This document shows positions 16,289 to 24,580 of a DNA stretch of 64,000 nt, in pieces; the stretch's first letter is position 1, and each line of letters begins with the position of its first letter. The stretch covers positions 1,488,001 to 1,552,000 of the forward strand of contig NZ_CP083723.1 of the NCBI RefSeq assembly GCF_020150815.1, in the 5' to 3' direction. The notes under the pieces are model-generated. The model was not told the origin of the DNA. It made no database searches and saw nothing but the letters and a program-made list of their open reading frames with translations. The translations under genes and the position numbers were made by a program. This DNA is from Haloprofundus salilacus (GTDB lineage Archaea > Halobacteriota > Halobacteria > Halobacteriales > Haloferacaceae).

Positions 16289-17539
16289 TCAGTCGTCGGC
16301 CTCGCCGACTACCGGTGTAGCGACTGACCCACCGTCCGCTACCAGCCGTCGTACCGCCCGCGACGCGACGAGCGCGATACCGATTTCGGTGAAGCCGACG
16401 ACGACGAACGCCTCGAAGTAGCCGAGCAGTTCGGCGGAGGACCCGCCGAGCAGGAAGCCGGTCAGGAAGCCGAGACTGCCGAAGATGTTGAATCCGCCCA
16501 TCGCTGCTCCTCGTTCGTCCTCCGCGGCGACGTCGGTGACGAGAGCCATCGTCGCCGGGGAGACCAAAGCCCCAAACACGCCGACGAGCACCATCGTCCC
16601 CGCCGCCAGCGGTAGCGACGGCGACGCGCCGACGACGATTATCGAGAGACCGTAGAGGATGGAGCCGACGACGACGGGGAGGAAGCGTCCGATGCGGTCC
16701 GAGAGCACGCCCATCGGATACTGCAGGAGCGCGAACGGCCCAAAGAACATCGCGAGCACGAGCCCCGCTCCGAACGCGTCGAGGCCGAACACGTCGCGGA
16801 AGTAGTAGATGCCGACGAGCGAGAAGAAGCCCGCTGTGAGGCGGTCGATGAAGCCGAACGCGTACGGAATCCGCAACGCCGGGCGGTCGACGATCTTTCC
16901 GAGGATCTCCCGTGCTCCGGTGCGGTCGTCGTCACCGCGACTCTCGCTTCGTTTCGCGCCGGGCGAGCGGTCCGTCACCGTCGCGGTCAGCAGCGCGACG
17001 AGACCGAGCAGTGCCGCCGCGCCGTACACCGGCGCGAGCGGGTCGGCAGTCGAGAGGCGACCGCCGACGACCGAGCCGACGGCCGCGCCGAGGCCGATGG
17101 CGATGCCCGCCGCGCCCATGTTGCGGCCGTTGCCGCCGCCGAGGTCCATCAGCATCGTCATCGACAGCGAGAACGCGCCGATGGTGAACGCGCCGCCGAC
17201 GACGCGGACTAGGAGTACGCCGCTGAAGCCGACGCCGAGCGTCGGGACGAGTGTGAGGAAAAGATAGCAGGCCGCGCCGCCGAGCGCGCCGACGACGATG
17301 AGGGGGACACGCCGCCCCGTGGCGTCGCTGAGCGCTCCCCACAGTCCGGCGAAGACGACGAACGCCGCGTACTCCGCGACGAGAAACCACATGCCGGCGT
17401 CGAGGTCGCCTGCGCCGCCGAGTGCGCGCACGAGGTCGGAGACGCCCGGGTAGAGGAGAACCTGCGACACCAACACCGCCCACACCGAGAGCGCGAGCGT
17501 GATTCGGTCACGTCGCGCCGAGTCGTTCATATCTGTCAT
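16289..17539 (-). CDS. MFS transporter
   Basis: Major facilitator of 416 aa with twelve predicted helices. Both intracellular loops carry the family signature: GALSDATGRRVPL after helix 2 and GVLSDRIGRFLPV after helix 8. The central loop is acidic (RGDDDRTGAREI). The start may be 17539 or an ATG three codons later. It is the last gene of the minus-strand series that includes the metal-binding lipoprotein, 42 nt downstream of it, so it could belong to the same unit. Substrate unknown. Confidence 0.9.
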   Translation of the reverse strand: MTDMNDSARRDRITLALSVWAVLVSQVLLYPGVSDLVRALGGAGDLDAGMWFLVAEYAAFVVFAGLWGALSDATGRRVPLIVVGALGGAACYLFLTLVPTLGVGFSGVLLVRVVGGAFTIGAFSLSMTMLMDLGGGNGRNMGAAGIAIGLGAAVGSVVGGRLSTADPLAPVYGAAALLGLVALLTATVTDRSPGAKRSESRGDDDRTGAREILGKIVDRPALRIPYAFGFIDRLTAGFFSLVGIYYFRDVFGLDAFGAGLVLAMFFGPFALLQYPMGVLSDRIGRFLPVVVGSILYGLSIIVVGASPSLPLAAGTMVLVGVFGALVSPATMALVTDVAAEDERGAAMGGFNIFGSLGFLTGFLLGGSSAELLGYFEAFVVVGFTEIGIALVASRAVRRLVADGGSVATPVVGEADD

Positions 17540-17581: not shown

Positions 17582-18625
17582 TCAGAACGTCATCGGCGGC
17601 ATATCGAGGAACGCCGTCTCGAACCCCTCGTGGCGCGCCGACTGCGGCGGCGTGTCGACGACGAGTTCGAGGTCGTCGTCAGCCGACAGTCCATCGACGT
17701 TCGCGCCGTAGTGGAAGCCGATCTTGGGGTCCAGCGCCGGTTCGAGCGAGACGTCGGTACCGCCGACCGTCGCGGAGAGCCCCATGCTCGGAATCACCAG
17801 TCCGTTGAGCGGCGTCCGCGGCGAGACGAGGAGGTAGGGCTGGTCGCCGAACCGGCCAGCGGAGACAGCGATGGCGACGAAGACGGCGTCGCCGCTCATC
17901 TCCGACCCGAACGACTCGCCCGGCAGCGAGTCCGGTTCGGGCGCTCTGCCGACGGGCATCGCCATCCCGTTCGGCATCTGCATCTCCATCACCGGGAGCG
18001 CACCGGGGTCGCCCTGCTTCTCTTCGAGTATCGTGTACGGGATGTCGTTTCGCTTGCGCTCGCTGTACTCGAACTCCAGTTCGGCCGTCGCGGGTTCCGC
18101 GAACTTCCCCTCGAACGCGCCGAACCGTCGGAGGTTCACACCGCCGACGTCGACGCGAAGGGTGTACGTCCCGTCGCCTGGGAGCGGCCAGTTGTCGCCG
18201 TAGTGAAAGCCCATCCGCTGGGAGAGCATCTCGTAGACGACCTCCTCTTCGCGGTATTCGTCGCCGTCACTCGTCTCGACGGTGACGCCCGTAGCCGGAA
18301 CGACCTGACCGCTCTCGGGGTCCCAGACGTTCACCATCAGGTGAATCGCGTCGTTGCGTCCGACGTCGATCCGCTCGGTCTCCTGCCCCTGTACGGTCCA
18401 GAAGCGGTGGGCGTAACTGTACATCACCCCGACTTTGAGGTCCCCTGCGTCCGCCATGCCGACCATCTTCATCCCCTCCTGGTGGGTGGGAACGTAGGAC
18501 GCCCGCGGGCGGTTCTCGACGAGCGGCGGTTCGCGACTCGTCGTCGTGTCGAGGAGGCTCGTACAACCGGCGAGCGAGCCCGCGAGGCCAGTGCCGACTG
18601 CACCGAGGAGGGTCCGCCGTCTCAT
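17582..18625 (-). CDS. Tat-exported lipoprotein with two P19/Tp34-like metal-binding repeats
   Basis: Predicted lipoprotein of 347 aa: a Tat signal RRRTLLG followed by the lipobox LAGC with Cys21. The mature part resembles the Fe/Cu-binding P19/Tp34 (iron transport) fold. The sequence GFHYG(D/A)N occurs twice, at 139-145 and 303-309, each followed by a beta-rich segment; in P19 the His of HYGAN is a copper ligand. A Met-rich linker (MEMQMPNGMAMP, about 213-224) joins the halves, and KMVGM near the N-terminus adds more Met. I infer a periplasm-side metal-binding protein. It lies downstream of a winged-helix regulator and a small membrane protein on the same strand. Confidence 0.75.
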   Translation of the reverse strand: MRRRTLLGAVGTGLAGSLAGCTSLLDTTTSREPPLVENRPRASYVPTHQEGMKMVGMADAGDLKVGVMYSYAHRFWTVQGQETERIDVGRNDAIHLMVNVWDPESGQVVPATGVTVETSDGDEYREEEVVYEMLSQRMGFHYGDNWPLPGDGTYTLRVDVGGVNLRRFGAFEGKFAEPATAELEFEYSERKRNDIPYTILEEKQGDPGALPVMEMQMPNGMAMPVGRAPEPDSLPGESFGSEMSGDAVFVAIAVSAGRFGDQPYLLVSPRTPLNGLVIPSMGLSATVGGTDVSLEPALDPKIGFHYGANVDGLSADDDLELVVDTPPQSARHEGFETAFLDMPPMTF

Positions 18626-18704
18626 GAGAGTGACTAGGCGAGTCCGACAGTTACGGGTTCTGGTCCGGTTCTCGAAGCGTTGGGTTCGCGTGCGACGGTC
18701 GCCG

Positions 18705-19217
18705 TCACTGTTCGAGCAGGCCGTCGACGAGGCGCGTGAACCGGTCGACGAACCGCTCGGGCAGCGACGGTGACACCGACGCGAGCAGTCGGGTGGTCGC
18801 TTCGGGACGCGCCAGCGCGAGCGTCACGCGACCGCGGCTATCGTATTGCTTCTCGACGACCGACTGCTCTTCGAGCCGCTTCGTGTGCCACGAGAGCGTG
18901 CTCCTGGCGATCCCGACCTCCTCCGCGACCTCCGCGGGCGTCGCCTCGCCGTGTTCGAGGAGGACGCCGAGCACGTCGCGGGCCGTCTCCCGACGCACCA
19001 GCGCCAGTACGCCGCGTTCCCACTCGTCGAACGTCGCCGGGTAGTAGTGGGTCTTCCCGTACAGGTGCGTTTCCGCGACCCGCTCGTCGCGGCCGAGTCG
19101 GCGGAGGTGGTACTGGACCTGTCCGGGTGCGAGGTCCAGCGCTCGGACGAGTTCGTTGAAGTGGACGCCCGGGTTGTGCTGGACGTGCGCCGCGATGCGG
19201 TTGCGCGTCGCGCTCAT
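18705..19217 (-). CDS. Transcriptional regulator with two winged-helix domains
   Basis: DNA-binding protein of 170 aa with two winged helix-turn-helix modules: one around 5-60 (HFNELVRALDLAPGQVQYHL) and one around 80-140 (TPAEVAEEVGIARSTLSWHT). The double-HTH arrangement is common among haloarchaeal ArsR-like regulators without a known ligand. The ATG lies 2 nt after the stop of the upstream membrane gene, so the two are co-transcribed, and the metal-binding lipoprotein follows 79 nt later. It probably controls this local cluster. Confidence 0.85.
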   Translation of the reverse strand: MSATRNRIAAHVQHNPGVHFNELVRALDLAPGQVQYHLRRLGRDERVAETHLYGKTHYYPATFDEWERGVLALVRRETARDVLGVLLEHGEATPAEVAEEVGIARSTLSWHTKRLEEQSVVEKQYDSRGRVTLALARPEATTRLLASVSPSLPERFVDRFTRLVDGLLEQ

Positions 19218-19219
19218 CG

Positions 19220-19552
19220 TTACCGATCACCCGCGGGCGCGGCCTGCTCGATGCTCCGCGCGTAGTACACCGCGGCGATGACCAGCGCGACCATGACGAA
19301 GTCGAGCGCGTGTTCGATGGCGTGGTGAGAGGCGAACGGGATGACGCCGCCGATAGTCAAAATCGCGACGCCGCTTCGCGCGAGCAGCGCCGCGAGCGCC
19401 AGCACGACGAGCGTGTGCGAGCGCGACTGCCGGCGCAGCAGCGCGATGAGACCGACGGCGACGATGAGCGTCGAACTGAACCCTGCCAACACGACGGCAG
19501 CCACCTCCGGGGCGCTCATCGTCGGCGCGGCGTGTGCTGAGAACGAGTGCAT
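19220..19552 (-). CDS. Small four-helix membrane protein with intramembrane His cluster (DUF7471-like)
   Basis: Protein of 110 aa with four predicted helices. The segment before the last helix, PFASHHAIEHALDF, places three His and one Glu on one face near the membrane and could coordinate metal or heme. The N-terminus MHSFSAHAAP adds two His; a start at M12 is also possible. It heads the minus-strand unit with the double winged-helix regulator and faces the DyP-like gene across a 141 nt divergent region. Function not known; the DUF name is from memory of similar haloarchaeal proteins. Confidence 0.7.
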   Translation of the reverse strand: MHSFSAHAAPTMSAPEVAAVVLAGFSSTLIVAVGLIALLRRQSRSHTLVVLALAALLARSGVAILTIGGVIPFASHHAIEHALDFVMVALVIAAVYYARSIEQAAPAGDR

Positions 19553-19693
19553 CTCTGTCTCCCCGAGATTACGCGTCGACGGTTATGTGCTGATTGGTGT
19601 GTGCGTCGAACGCCATACCCAGCGCGTCCGTTCTTGCCCGCGTTCGACGGCCGCACCAGAACCCCTATCCCCGGAACGGACCTAGCGACGACG

Positions 19694-20989
19694 ATGAGTC
19701 CGGGGACCGACGAGTGGAGTCGCAGAGACGTGCTGAAAGCCGCCGTCGCCGTCGGCGGCGCGGGCGCGCTCTCGGCCTGTCTCGACCTCACCGACGAACC
19801 CGTCCCAGAGGGCGTCTCCGACCCCTCAACGCTCCCGGCGCGACAGCACGCGTGGGACGACCTGCTCACGCGCGACGGCGCGGAGAACGTCGAACTCCCA
19901 CGGCATCAGACGCTTCTGTACCTTACGCTCGACCGCGAGGGCACGCCGACGTCCGACGACCGGCGCGCGGTGGAGGAGGCGCTGTCGACGCTGGACCGCG
20001 CCTACGAGCGGAGCAACCGGGGGCTGATTTACTCGCTCGCCTACTCGCCGGCGTACTTCTCGCGCTTCGTCGACCCGCTTCCCGAGAACGTCGACCTGCC
20101 GGAACCGCGACGGCTCTCGCCGTTCGAAACTCCTGAATTCGACCGACAGGACGCGCTGTTGCACCTCGCCAGCGACCGCGCCGACGCGCTGATAGAGGCC
20201 GAGGAAGCGCTGACGGGAGAACGAGACACTGCCAACGAGGTGACGATCGAGACGCCGCTTTCCGCCGCGTTCTCGGTTGACTCCCGGCGAACGGGGTTCA
20301 TCGGCAAAGGCATGCCCGCCGAGAAACAGGACGTGGCAGGCATCCCCGACGACGACCCGGTTCCCGAGGAGTCGCCGCTGTTCATGGGATTCAAAGCCGG
20401 GTTCGCGAAGAATCAGGCCTCAGAGGAGTACGTCACCATCCCCGACGGTCCGTTCGCGGGCGCGACGACGAAACACGTCTCGAAACTTCGCCAGCGCCTC
20501 GACGACTGGTACGTCGAGCAGGAGTTCGACGACCGGGTGGCCGAGATGTTCAGCCCCGCACACGCCGAACGCGGCCTCGTCGAGGGTATCGGCGACAACC
20601 TCGGCGACGACAGCGGCGTCACCCCGGAGATAATCGAGAGTGTCCGCGAGCACGCGCAACAGTACGGTCGGGTCGGCCACGCCCAGAAGGCCGCCCGCGC
20701 CAACCGCGACGACGAGGGAAACGTCCGCCTGCTGCGACGGCACTTCGAGTCGACCGACGAGAACGAGGCGAGCCTCCACTTCCCGTCGCTGCAGCGACGA
20801 ATCACCGACTTTGAGGAGGTGCGAGAGGCGATGAACGGGACCGACCTCACCGACGAACCCGCGATCCGCCAGCGCGTGAACAACGGCATCCTGGAGTACA
20901 TCTTCGTGAAGAACCGCGGAAACTTCCTCGTGCCGCCGCGCCGCCTGCGGGTGCTGCCGACGCCGACCGGCGAGGTTCCGGGACTGTGA
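19694..20989 (+). CDS. Tat lipoprotein with DyP/EfeB peroxidase-like fold, degenerate active site (DUF7405-like)
   Basis: Predicted exported protein of 431 aa: Tat motif SRRDVLK (9-15) and lipobox LSAC with Cys29. The C-terminal half matches the DyP-type heme peroxidase plan. GFKAGFAKN (232-240) stands where EfeB has GFKDGTANP, VGHAQKAARANRDD (327-340) provides the axial His329, LLRRHF (346-351) the distal Arg, and LHFPSLQRR the family's closing strand. The Asp of GxxDG is Ala235, so classical peroxidase chemistry is doubtful while heme binding remains possible. Divergent from the regulator operon. ATG 19694 is fixed by the Tat signal. Confidence 0.75.
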   Translation: MSPGTDEWSRRDVLKAAVAVGGAGALSACLDLTDEPVPEGVSDPSTLPARQHAWDDLLTRDGAENVELPRHQTLLYLTLDREGTPTSDDRRAVEEALSTLDRAYERSNRGLIYSLAYSPAYFSRFVDPLPENVDLPEPRRLSPFETPEFDRQDALLHLASDRADALIEAEEALTGERDTANEVTIETPLSAAFSVDSRRTGFIGKGMPAEKQDVAGIPDDDPVPEESPLFMGFKAGFAKNQASEEYVTIPDGPFAGATTKHVSKLRQRLDDWYVEQEFDDRVAEMFSPAHAERGLVEGIGDNLGDDSGVTPEIIESVREHAQQYGRVGHAQKAARANRDDEGNVRLLRRHFESTDENEASLHFPSLQRRITDFEEVREAMNGTDLTDEPAIRQRVNNGILEYIFVKNRGNFLVPPRRLRVLPTPTGEVPGL

Positions 20990-20997
20990 ATTTCCGG

Positions 20998-21177
20998 TTA
21001 TCGCTCTCTGTCGGCTGACTCGGAGTCGGAGTCAGTATCTCCGTCGGCATGGGTGAACGCCTGGAGGCATCGGTAACAGCGGTAGATACGCTTATTTCCG
21101 AAGTATGTGCCGCCGGTTCGCTTCCTCAGCACCAGTCTACTTCCACACTTCGGACAGGCGGGGTTGCCAAACACCAT
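20998..21177 (-). CDS. Small zinc-ribbon protein (59 aa)
   Basis: Reads MVFGNPACPKCGSRLVLRKR, then FGNKRIYRCYRCLQAF and an acidic Asp/Ser tail. Two Cys-x2-Cys knuckles 24 residues apart form a complete zinc ribbon, of the type seen in haloarchaeal microproteins and in the N-terminal ribbon of some transposase regulators. ATG 21177 is the only sensible start. It converges with the DyP-like gene 8 nt away and follows the large membrane gene by 44 nt on the same strand. DNA or protein binding is an inference. Confidence 0.72.
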   Translation of the reverse strand: MVFGNPACPKCGSRLVLRKRTGGTYFGNKRIYRCYRCLQAFTHADGDTDSDSESADRER

Positions 21178-21221
21178 TCGCGTGATGTTCCCTACATACC
21201 AACGCTACGACAAATGCGTTT

Positions 21222-22679
21222 TCAAACGGCAACCGGCCGCGAGATGATCCACAGCGACAGCACCGTGTAGCCGACCATGAGCGTCGCCAGCGGCGCGTGG
21301 GCCGCGAGCGCCGACCGACTATCGCCCGCGACGCGCCGGGAGACAGCGTCGGCGGCGACGACTGCGACGACGTGGCCGAGGACGACCAGGGCGACCTGCG
21401 TCAGCCAGAATGCGGGCAAAGTGAGCCAAAACAGCGGATCGACTGTCTCCGCGCCGACGGCGCTCGGCAACGCCCCGAGGCCAGTGAGCGCGTAGCCGTA
21501 GTTGTGCGCCACCTCGTAGGCGGCCGCGATGGGCAGAAGCGTCGCCGCGAACGCCGTCGCCGACGTGTGATGCGAGTCGCCGTGGTCGCCTTCGTTGCCG
21601 ACATACGCCGAGACGACGCGAGCGACGGTGGCGAAGGCGGCGAGAAACCCCGCGAGACCGACGAAGTATAGCGTCAAACTCGCCTCGGGACCCAGACCGG
21701 TCACGTCGCGTAGGCTGTAGAAGATCGCCTGATACTCCGGTGAGGCGGAGAAGCCGTCGAAGCTCACCGTGTAGACCGCGGCGACGACGAACGCGGCTTC
21801 TGCGATCGAAACGGGGGACAGACAGCCGCGCCACGGCGGGCGAGCGACGACCTGCCACTCCCCGTTCCCGCCACTGCCCTCGTCCTCAGCGCGGACCGTG
21901 CGGAGCGGCGCGACTCGACCGAGCAGTCGGTAGAGAATCGACAGCGGGTCCGCGCGGTCGAACCACGTCAAACCGAAGACGACGCCGCCGGCGAGCATTG
22001 TGAGCGCGTAGCCCGCGACCAGCGCCGCGGTCAGCGACGGCCGCGACGGTATCACGGTCAGGTTCTCGGCGACGCCGACGAGGAGCAGAAAGCCGACGAC
22101 TGCGGGCCATTCGCCGAGTTGCTCCGGATACGCTCGGAGTCGCACTTCACCGCCTTCGAGCCGGCAGAGGAGGCGATAGAGGTTCCGCCACGGCGAGAGC
22201 GTCCCCCACGGGGACCCGACGACGACGGAGACGAGCGCGACTCCCTTGAACCACACCGGCCAGACGAACAGCGTCGCGAAGTTCGTCGACGGTGCGCTCG
22301 GCCCGATCGCGCCGTGGACCAGTGCCGCGACGATTGCGAGGAAGAAGCCTCCGCCCGCGACGGCGCGAACGAGTTTCGCGGGGGTCGACGGAACGGCCGC
22401 GAGCGTCGACACGGAACGACCGGCCGGTGACGTTTCGACACGTCCGGTCCCCTTCGCCGACGGACGTCTCTTCCGGCCTGCGAGAACTGCGGCCGTCAGT
22501 CCGACCGTCGCCCCCGCGCCGAGAAACAGCAGCGAGAGCGGAATCGGCGACTCGAAGCGCGTCGCCACCTGGTGGGCCGCGACCGGCGTCGACAGCAGCG
22601 AGACGGCGACGAGGCCGACGATGACGGCGGCGAAAACGCCGGTGATGTGCGACGACGCGCAGCCAGAGAGCCTTCGCAT
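21222..22679 (-). CDS. Polytopic membrane protein of the metal/heme-like cluster
   Basis: Integral membrane protein of 485 aa with a cleavable-looking signal (VAVSLLSTPVAAHQ) and about eleven helices. A His-rich loop, GNEGDHGDSHHTS (about 398-410), and EVAHNYGYALTG in the following helix could bind a metal. The start AHQVATRFESPIPLSLLF recalls a family of bacterial membrane proteins loosely annotated as fenitrothion hydrolase, whose function is not established. There is no REXXE motif, so it is not an FTR1/EfeU iron permease. It follows the propeller gene by 61 nt on the same strand and is probably co-transcribed with it. Confidence 0.72.
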   Translation of the reverse strand: MRRLSGCASSHITGVFAAVIVGLVAVSLLSTPVAAHQVATRFESPIPLSLLFLGAGATVGLTAAVLAGRKRRPSAKGTGRVETSPAGRSVSTLAAVPSTPAKLVRAVAGGGFFLAIVAALVHGAIGPSAPSTNFATLFVWPVWFKGVALVSVVVGSPWGTLSPWRNLYRLLCRLEGGEVRLRAYPEQLGEWPAVVGFLLLVGVAENLTVIPSRPSLTAALVAGYALTMLAGGVVFGLTWFDRADPLSILYRLLGRVAPLRTVRAEDEGSGGNGEWQVVARPPWRGCLSPVSIAEAAFVVAAVYTVSFDGFSASPEYQAIFYSLRDVTGLGPEASLTLYFVGLAGFLAAFATVARVVSAYVGNEGDHGDSHHTSATAFAATLLPIAAAYEVAHNYGYALTGLGALPSAVGAETVDPLFWLTLPAFWLTQVALVVLGHVVAVVAADAVSRRVAGDSRSALAAHAPLATLMVGYTVLSLWIISRPVAV

Positions 22680-22740
22680 ACTCGACGGTGGGACAGTGCA
22701 GTGAAAACCCGCGCGGTTCGTCGGCACGGCGGTCACGAGG

Positions 22741-23976
22741 TCAGTCGGTCGCGTACTCCAGCGCCGCGACCCGTCCGTCACCGTAGCGGACGAGAATCTC
22801 GTCGTCTCCGTCGCCGTCGATATCGGAGAGCGTCGGATAAACCCACGCCGGCACGTCGCGTTCGTACGTCGCGAGCGTCTCGCCGGAGGTGGGGTCGAGA
22901 ACCGACACCGAACCCTCGTTGGTGAGCGCGACGAGTTCCGGAGCGCCGTCGCCGTCGAGGTCGCCGAGTTTCGGCGCGGGATGCTGGGCGGCCTCGCCGG
23001 TCGAAACCGTCGCTTCCCACTCGGTGTCGCTGCTGTCCGCGTCGAATGCGACGACGCGCCCGTCGGTGAGCGTCGCGTACACCTCGGCGTCGCTGTCGTC
23101 GTCGCCGTTGCCGACCGCACCGACGCGCGGGTTGCCGTCGAACGTGACGCTCCACCGCTCGCTTCCGTTCCGGCCGTCGAGAGCTGTGACTTCGCCGCTC
23201 GTGCCGACGAAGATGTCGACCGCGTCGCTATTCGCCTCGCCGTCCGCCTCGCCGACCGCCATCGACGCGACACCCCCGCCCTCACCACCGCCGCGCCACT
23301 CGACGTTTCCGTCGGCGTCAAGCAGAACCGGACCGTCGCTCGTTCCGAACAGCGTCTCGTTCGCGCCGTCGCCGTCGACGTCAGCGACGACGGGCGTCGG
23401 GAACGTCGACGCACCGAGATCCGCGCGCCACAGCACGTCGCCGGTTTCGCCGTCGACAACGACTGCGCCGCCGGCGATGTCGCTGGCGACCAGTTCGGAG
23501 TCGCCGTCGCCGGTCAAATCGCCCACCGTGGGAGCGCCGTAGCCGTAGGTGTCCATCGGAACGCGGTACCGCTCGGCGCCGTCGGCATCGAAGACGACGA
23601 GCGCTTCCTCGGTGGTGACGACGGCGACTTCGGGCGAGTCGTCGCCCGTCAGGTCGGCGACGACGGGTTCGGTCAGCGCATGCGGCGTGCAGTTCGCCTC
23701 GGGGACGGTGTAGCGCCAGCGCGTCTCGCCGTTGTCGTCGAGGCGGACAAGCGAACACTCGCCGAGCGGGACGCCGTCGCGCTCCGGGACGCTCACCGGC
23801 GCGACGACGACATCTCCGTCCGCACCGACGGCGTGGTGGTTCGCTAACGTGTCGCGTGCGGTGTCGCTCATCCACTGTTCGCGCAACTCGGGCCCGCCGT
23901 CGGTCAGCGCGACGCCCGCGACGGCGACGAGTGAAAGCGAGAGAACGACGAGGGCGGCGAGCGTCCGGCGACGCAT
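22741..23976 (-). CDS. Exported FG-GAP/VCBS propeller protein
   Basis: Secreted or membrane-anchored protein of 411 aa with an N-terminal hydrophobic segment (LAALVVLSLSLVAVAGVAL). Seven repeats are visible, most with the calcium-binding core D-x-D/T-G-D-x-x-x-E (VADLTGDDSPEVAVV, VGDLTGDGDSELVAS, VADVDGDGANETLFG, GDLDGDGAPELVAL, SDIDGDGDDEILVR and two divergent copies), consistent with a seven-bladed beta-propeller. Two Cys near residues 78-97 may form a disulfide. It probably acts on the cell surface in ligand or partner binding and leads the two- or three-gene unit with the polytopic membrane protein. Confidence 0.85.
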   Translation of the reverse strand: MRRRTLAALVVLSLSLVAVAGVALTDGGPELREQWMSDTARDTLANHHAVGADGDVVVAPVSVPERDGVPLGECSLVRLDDNGETRWRYTVPEANCTPHALTEPVVADLTGDDSPEVAVVTTEEALVVFDADGAERYRVPMDTYGYGAPTVGDLTGDGDSELVASDIAGGAVVVDGETGDVLWRADLGASTFPTPVVADVDGDGANETLFGTSDGPVLLDADGNVEWRGGGEGGGVASMAVGEADGEANSDAVDIFVGTSGEVTALDGRNGSERWSVTFDGNPRVGAVGNGDDDSDAEVYATLTDGRVVAFDADSSDTEWEATVSTGEAAQHPAPKLGDLDGDGAPELVALTNEGSVSVLDPTSGETLATYERDVPAWVYPTLSDIDGDGDDEILVRYGDGRVAALEYATD

Positions 23977-24193: not shown

Positions 24194-24580
24194 ATGCCTA
24201 CCGTACAGTTCCGCGGACGAGAAATCGAGTGCGAGAAGGGGACAGTACTCCGCGACGTGTTGCTGGCGGCCGGACTGTCGCCGCACAACGGGCGCGCACA
24301 GCAACTGAACTGCCGGGGTCACGCGACGTGCGGGACGTGCGCCGTCGAAGCGGACGGCGACGTAAGCGAGATGAGGAGTCAGGAACGCCGCAGACTTTCG
24401 CTGCCGCCGCACAGCCTCGACTCGGGGCTTAGACTCTCCTGTCAGACGCGGGTCGAAGGCGACGTGGGCGTCACGAAGTACGAGGGATTCTGGGGGCAGC
24501 GCGTCGACGGCGCGCAGGGCGGTTCGGACGAGCGCGACGTATCGAACGAACGCGACGACGCGACCGCCGACCGTGTCTGA
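24194..24580 (+). CDS. [2Fe-2S] ferredoxin
   Basis: Plant-type ferredoxin-like protein of 128 aa. Cluster ligands are Cys40, Cys46 and Cys49 (NCRGHATCGTCAVE) and Cys83 (LSCQTRV), the C-x5-C-x2-C pattern of adrenodoxin-like and Isc-type ferredoxins rather than the C-x4-C-x2-C of the abundant haloarchaeal ferredoxin. A C-terminal acidic tail is probably disordered. A TATA-like GATACT about 27 nt upstream suggests a leaderless transcript. Redox partner unknown; the convergent 3-hydroxyacyl-CoA dehydrogenase is 6 nt away. Confidence 0.9.
   Translation: MPTVQFRGREIECEKGTVLRDVLLAAGLSPHNGRAQQLNCRGHATCGTCAVEADGDVSEMRSQERRRLSLPPHSLDSGLRLSCQTRVEGDVGVTKYEGFWGQRVDGAQGGSDERDVSNERDDATADRV

Follow-up and report, generated by a model that had tools for sequence, protein, structure and literature searches.

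A modular haloarchaeal gene cluster pairing P19-like and DyP-fold lipoproteins without FTR1: a candidate extracytoplasmic copper-trafficking system

Until now, known P19 proteins and those of the EfeB type have been associated with the FTR1 permease, the former in the FetMP, P19-cFtr1 and FtrABCD systems, and the latter in EfeUOB, in which EfeB is a dye-decolorizing peroxidase (DyP) and EfeU the FTR1 protein. In copper transport of the CopC/CopD type, and in that of the CcoA type deploying a member of the major facilitator superfamily (MFS), a membrane protein stands beside an extracytoplasmic copper-type protein. The sco-ecuc-SLI_4212-dtpA operon of Streptomyces lividans supplies a DyP exported by the twin-arginine translocation (Tat) route together with copper lipoproteins, all needed for maturation of the copper enzyme GlxA under low copper; oxidation of Cu(I) by DtpA was proposed by the authors of that study, who also drew a parallel with the efeB gene cluster (PMC4736821). 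The present analysis, which bears on how copper reaches archaeal enzymes located outside the cell membrane, concerns a gene cluster within a 64,000 nt stretch of the Haloprofundus salilacus genome (G000:C1:1488001-1552000, the whole of which is hereafter termed the window), where genes for a P19-like lipoprotein and a DyP-fold lipoprotein lie close to that of an undescribed polytopic membrane protein, here termed MEM. The cluster probably serves to move copper on the outer side of the cell membrane, not to bring iron into the cell.

The comparison was based on 116 haloarchaeal genomes, which are mutually related and yield counts that are not independent events. The DyP and P19 genes were present together in 97 genomes and jointly missing from 15; four genomes held DyP only, three of them solely as a divergent paralogue, and none held P19 only. 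The main DyP gene was located within 5 kb of P19 at no fewer than 83 of 115 loci, against 0.5 expected, a proximity recorded for none of the 28 divergent DyP paralogues among the matches listed. By way of contrast, FTR1 was detected in none of the 116 genomes, the window cluster included, while four bacterial controls were positive in the same search, so that the lack of FTR1 characterises the class as a whole and not this locus in particular. A class that has kept the P19 and DyP pair without FTR1 implies that these proteins have become separated from iron permeation, and this class-wide pairing, together with an undescribed membrane family in archaeal and bacterial copper neighbourhoods, constituted the main surprise of the analysis.

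Because the FTR1 partner was searched for and not found, the cluster is neither an EfeUOB nor a FetMP/FtrABCD system. It shares with EfeUOB the combination of a secreted DyP-fold protein and a secreted metal-binding protein, but differs both in lacking FTR1 and in the replacement of the Asp of the GXXDG motif in its DyP-fold protein; no EfeO-like Pfam match was recorded among the window-cluster proteins, the rest of the genome not having been searched for M75. With FetMP, P19-cFtr1 and FtrABCD it has in common the P19/FtrA family and the conserved His/Met/His residues, here located in repeat 1 of a lipoprotein with two P19-like repeats and a DyP partner. The closest precedent is the Streptomyces operon, like which the window cluster may work, each coupling a Tat-exported DyP to copper lipoproteins placed outside the cytoplasm and to a candidate copper transporter in what would be cuproenzyme maturation. 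The two differ in that Sco and ECuC in Streptomyces are replaced by a P19-like carrier, neither Sco nor PCuAC giving a Pfam match in the window cluster, and in that the membrane protein is MEM, with an MFS gene nearby; moreover, the haloarchaeal DyP lacks the distal Asp, and experimental support exists only in Streptomyces. The CopC/CopD and CcoA types are matched by a MEM gene beside that of an extracytoplasmic copper-type protein and near cox or cop genes, and by the presence of the MFS gene, but not by MEM itself, which has neither a Pfam nor a PDB fold match; no sequence link between MEM and CopD or between the MFS protein and CcoA turned up, no search having been aimed at either.

An initial reading made from the sequence alone (the sequence-only reading) had described the system as lacking a recognisable permease. 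FTR1 is indeed missing, both here and throughout the class, but the statement was too strong because two candidate permeases remain, MEM, which is polytopic, and the product of the conserved MFS gene. The MFS gene keeps its place beside P19 at loci of several related genera, a different MFS gene being found at only one of eight distinct loci (L066), and the seven-gene boundary originally drawn thus stopped one gene too early.

The description of the first secreted component as a Tat lipoprotein with two P19-like repeats was upheld, and by sequence it is a member of the P19 family. Pfam searches returned DUF7350 (E 6e-46) and, above its cut-off, Iron_transport; the two repeats proved homologous to one another (hhalign 95.6%, E 4e-9), repeat 1 matched an FtrA fragment (hhalign 97.4%), and a profile search retrieved FtrA from the PDB (E 1.8e-5). 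Four residues, three of them in repeat 1 (H95, M133 and H141) and one in repeat 2 (H332), were invariant among 35 P19 sequences, the first three occupying positions which we take to be those of the His/Met/His copper-site ligands of P19. The linker between the repeats abounded in Met in the closest congener and was highly enriched in His in other genera (L062, L099, L100).

The second secreted component, predicted to be an EfeB/DyP-like Tat lipoprotein, corresponded to DUF7405 (Pfam E 8e-170), and the top Foldseek PDB matches of its AlphaFold model (pLDDT 89.7) were all DyP peroxidases (E 2e-16, TMt <=0.75). Alignment with Escherichia coli EfeB extended along most of the length, with the regions of His329 and RR348/349 in register and GFKDG replaced by GFKAGF, though hhalign against this single sequence gave a probability of only 0.7% (E 0.08), and the assignment therefore rests on the fold match; a PDB search with a single DyP sequence returned noise only, around the signal peptide. 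Across 39 aligned DUF7405 proteins, the proximal heme ligand His329 and the distal Arg348 were retained without exception, while position 235, equivalent to the distal Asp of GXXDG, was occupied by Ser (23), Ala (14, including A235 of the window protein), Gly (1) or Asn (1), and never by Asp. Judged by its modelled fold, the protein is a member of the DyP superfamily devoid of this Asp. A divergent DUF7405 paralogue was located elsewhere in the same genome (G000:C1:256277-257269; L101).

Evidence as to the metal came from the neighbourhoods of MEM and P19 paralogues. MEM genes were found in two types of setting, one with the propeller and DyP genes, as in the window, and the other with a gene for a small protein containing C2H2 zinc-finger and transmembrane elements (C2H2+TM). 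The two remaining MEM genes of this genome belong to the latter type and are sited among cytochrome-oxidase genes, one (L225:7353-9283) being divergent from COX3 and the other (L226:7921-9584) lying inside a COX1 / COX1-COX3 / COX2 / COX4 cluster. A cox gene was present within 8 kb at 15 of 37 C2H2-type MEM loci, as compared with 3 of 58 other MEM loci and none of 33 control DyP loci without MEM. The order P19, C2H2, MEM, CopA, HiPIP was recorded in g6 genomes, in Haloferax alexandrinus and on a plasmid of H. mediterranei. On plasmids of Haloprofundus and Salinigranum, genes for a CDF protein, a P-type ATPase, MEM, two P19 proteins, DyP, a small protein with a winged-helix regulator, a blue copper protein and a metal transporter occur together, the Salinigranum set ending in a multicopper oxidase. 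Actinobacterial MEM genes were variously found beside genes for CopC, heme-copper oxidase subunit III and an oxidase assembly protein, beside those for a P-type ATPase and a multicopper oxidase, and near copper membrane monooxygenase genes or a galactose-oxidase-like gene; in Actinobacteria MEM follows a lipoprotein gene whose best natural profile match, albeit weak (E 0.006-0.018), was to the CuA domains of oxidase subunit 2.

Because the paralogue neighbours for which a metal is known are copper genes, copper is the best-supported metal, without being proven for the window locus. The earlier description of an envelope metal or heme system stood as regards a metal-handling envelope group, given the co-occurrence and adjacency of DyP and P19 across the class, the adjacency of P19 and MEM copies and the class-wide lack of FTR1, with the neighbours favouring copper over iron or heme. 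The preferred reading, held with a confidence about midway between doubt and assurance, sees in the cluster a modular haloarchaeal system for trafficking copper outside the cytoplasm. Gene linkage, conserved residues, protein families and folds and the lack of FTR1 are what the analysis shows, whereas we infer the metal, the direction of transport, the role of each protein and the regulation. The P19-like lipoprotein would bind copper outside the membrane via the FtrA-equivalent His/Met/His residues of repeat 1, possibly assisted by the conserved His in repeat 2; the DyP-fold protein, likewise secreted, may control the oxidation state of the copper, clear nearby peroxide or do both, as proposed for DtpA; and MEM, possibly with the MFS protein, would hand copper to or across the membrane. 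Potential recipients include extracytoplasmic cuproenzymes such as blue copper proteins and the CuA/CuB sites of heme-copper oxidases, with the DUF7471 protein and its adjoining helix-turn-helix (HTH) protein as the likely sensor-regulator pair.

MEM belongs to an undescribed family common to archaea and bacteria, the closest named relative of the window protein being that of Haloprofundus marisrubri (71% identity). Neither Pfam nor NCBIfam gave a match above cut-off, no sequence match was obtained in the PDB, and the predicted structure (pLDDT 89.1) had no PDB counterpart (best E 0.04, TM ~0.2 or less) and none among viral models. Residues H392, H436 and M468 were kept in every member with a residue at the relevant position (75-76 of 76, from archaea, Actinobacteria and Proteobacteria), and a His directly followed a signal-peptidase-like site in 65 of the 76 members (His36 in the window protein), the cleavage context being good in 57. 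The GDHGDSHHTS loop to which attention had been drawn in the sequence-only reading was, however, private to the window protein and absent from every other member. It is tentatively suggested, as possible rather than probable, that MEM is a new copper-handling membrane family of haloarchaea, Actinobacteria and Proteobacteria with a fold not represented in the PDB, relying on a His at the N-terminus and on two His and one Met embedded in the membrane. Its secreted partner would be a copper lipoprotein that can be exchanged, being P19-like in archaea and cupredoxin-like in Actinobacteria, and the two would supply copper to cytochrome oxidases and copper monooxygenases, among other cuproenzymes outside the cytoplasm. 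The analysis points in any event to an undescribed membrane family whose genes, in both archaea and bacteria, lie beside copper genes and those for cytochrome oxidase. Outside the haloarchaea, a Marine Group IV archaeon (L174) also carries MEM and C2H2+TM genes beside COX genes. Four alphaproteobacterial MEM genes (L186, L187, L190, L223), with changes at E205 and/or D244, were located among genes for transport or catabolism, in three cases by a molybdenum hydroxylase or hydantoinase gene, and possibly serve another substrate. The label 'fenitrothion hydrolase', sometimes given to bacterial relatives, was not used, the plasmid records reading hypothetical and the papers found being unrelated.

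Several results weigh against the copper-trafficking reading. The window cluster itself is adjoined by no gene for CopA, cytochrome oxidase or a blue copper protein. Several of the copper neighbourhoods are those of plasmids, which abound in metal genes and for which no background rate is at hand. The MEM family is not purely copper-linked, because its Rhodobacterales and Rhizobiales copies adjoin molybdenum hydroxylase or hydantoinase genes; in these copies E205 and/or D244, otherwise nearly invariant in the family, are altered. Whether the DUF7405 protein acts as a peroxidase is uncertain given the loss of the distal Asp, and is not predictable from residues because, according to a review (PMC8197335), it is the Asp of GXXDG that matters for catalysis in certain DyPs but the Arg in others. 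The literature searched contained no paper naming DUF7405, DUF7350 or DUF7471, no expression or binding data for them, and nothing relevant on haloarchaea in combination with dye-decolorizing peroxidase.

A final point of this kind is that the two secreted proteins have P19/FtrA and EfeB, which function in iron uptake, as their nearest characterised relatives. It leads directly to the foremost alternative, in which the P19-like and DyP-fold proteins capture ferrous iron and oxidise it, or else remove iron from heme, as in FetMP or EfeUOB, with MEM or the MFS protein as an importer free of FTR1. The match of P19 repeat 1 to FtrA, that of the DyP-fold protein to EfeB-type and other DyP proteins, and the annotation of related P19 genes as 'iron transporter' are all consistent with such a role. 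Nevertheless, it is considered unlikely in view of the absence of FTR1 from the whole class sample and of the fact that such metal genes as can be recognised near MEM and P19 paralogues relate to copper, namely CopA, multicopper oxidase, cox, cupredoxin and copper monooxygenase genes.

The same copper neighbours could also be accommodated by detoxification of copper (or silver), whereby the secreted proteins would sequester or oxidise the metal and MEM or the MFS protein expel it alongside CopA. The order P19-MEM-CopA-HiPIP and the occurrence of CopC, a metal-sensitive regulator, a P-type ATPase, a CDF protein and a multicopper oxidase beside plasmid MEM genes both point in this direction. However, in this genome MEM is linked most tightly to cytochrome-oxidase genes, suggesting supply, and the near class-wide DyP-P19 pairing fits a housekeeping function better than accessory resistance, which makes detoxification a decidedly unlikely account of the cluster.

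A defence against oxidative stress at the envelope, in which the DyP-fold protein and the HVO_0163-type regulator would answer oxidants and P19 serve as an accessory metal site, appears improbable. HVO_0163, after which the N-terminal domain family of the regulator is named, goes up in H. volcanii exposed to hypochlorite (PMC10294847), MsrA and DsbA-like genes were found near some loci, and the DyP fold has kept its heme His and Arg; set against this are the loss of the distal Asp from all 39 aligned proteins and the linkage of P19 and MEM to copper genes, which such a function leaves unexplained.

That the genes are chance neighbours with no common function, as the absence of modules from some genomes and the incidental zinc ribbon might suggest, is extremely improbable given DyP-P19 and MEM-P19 linkage roughly 50- to 150-fold over chance and the adjacency of DUF7471 and HTH genes at 29 of 36 fetched loci. 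MEM lay within 5 kb of P19 at no fewer than 28 of 117 loci (0.6 expected) and within 5 kb of DyP at no fewer than 13 of 117 (0.4 expected), and the propeller gene adjoined MEM at 30 of 49 MEM1-type loci. A neighbourhood search across haloarchaeal genomes, as recommended at the outset, placed the DyP-P19, MEM-P19, MEM-propeller and DUF7471-HTH linkages far above chance and so lent support to an envelope system for which proximity by itself had been weak grounds. The proposal that seven families function together as one group was nonetheless only partly sustained: several pairs are linked, but the group is modular and its seven members do not invariably go together. Both MEM and the propeller can be dispensed with, since two congeners (G019, C1:405571-405666; G022, C1:88745-88840) retain beside DyP merely a deletion remnant of some 32 MEM residues. 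DUF7471 was present in 99 and the HTH family in all 116 of the genomes, and because DUF7471 also occurs where DyP and P19 are missing, we infer that it and the regulator form a wider, nearly universal haloarchaeal pair that joined the cluster.

All seven open reading frames (ORFs) originally listed were present at the positions and on the strands claimed, and are given with two flanking genes, in their order along the window, in Table 1. The regulator and DUF7471 genes are separated by 2 bp and followed on the same strand by P19; the DyP gene is divergent from DUF7471, and MEM and the propeller gene make up a second minus-strand unit.

Table 1. Features of the cluster and its flanks, with coordinates counted from the start of the window.
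Feature	Coordinates	Strand	Remarks
MFS transporter, candidate permease	16289..17539	-	43 bp downstream of P19, co-oriented
P19: Tat lipoprotein, two P19/FtrA-like repeats	17582..18625	-	DUF7350 x2, Iron_transport; 347 aa
HTH: double winged-helix regulator	18705..19217	-	HTH_HVO_0163_N + HTH_24
DUF7471 small membrane protein with conserved HHxxEH	19220..19552	-	paired with regulator gene
DyP: Tat lipoprotein, predicted DyP-type peroxidase fold (DUF7405)	19694..20989	+	431 aa
Zinc-ribbon microprotein ORF	20998..21177	-	outside conserved group
MEM: polytopic membrane protein, undescribed archaeal/bacterial family	21222..22679	-	485 aa
Exported FG-GAP/PQQ-type propeller	22741..23976	-	Pfam
[2Fe-2S] ferredoxin	24194..24580	+	link to cluster uncertain

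The smaller components were likewise as first described, with one exception. Pfam confirmed both the double winged-helix architecture of the regulator, which is ArsR-like with a score under the metalloregulator cut-off, and the FG-GAP propeller, and the HHxxEH motif of the small membrane protein recurred in 34 of 36 DUF7471 relatives. The exception was the zinc-ribbon ORF, which was found in no relative, the closest congeners included, is for that reason not part of the conserved group, and is clearly incidental to the cluster. The ferredoxin gene was found within 5 kb of DyP at 6 of 41 loci. The propeller and most of the relatives inspected carry, near the N-terminus, an NHH motif, usually NHHAP, which is a possible metal site.

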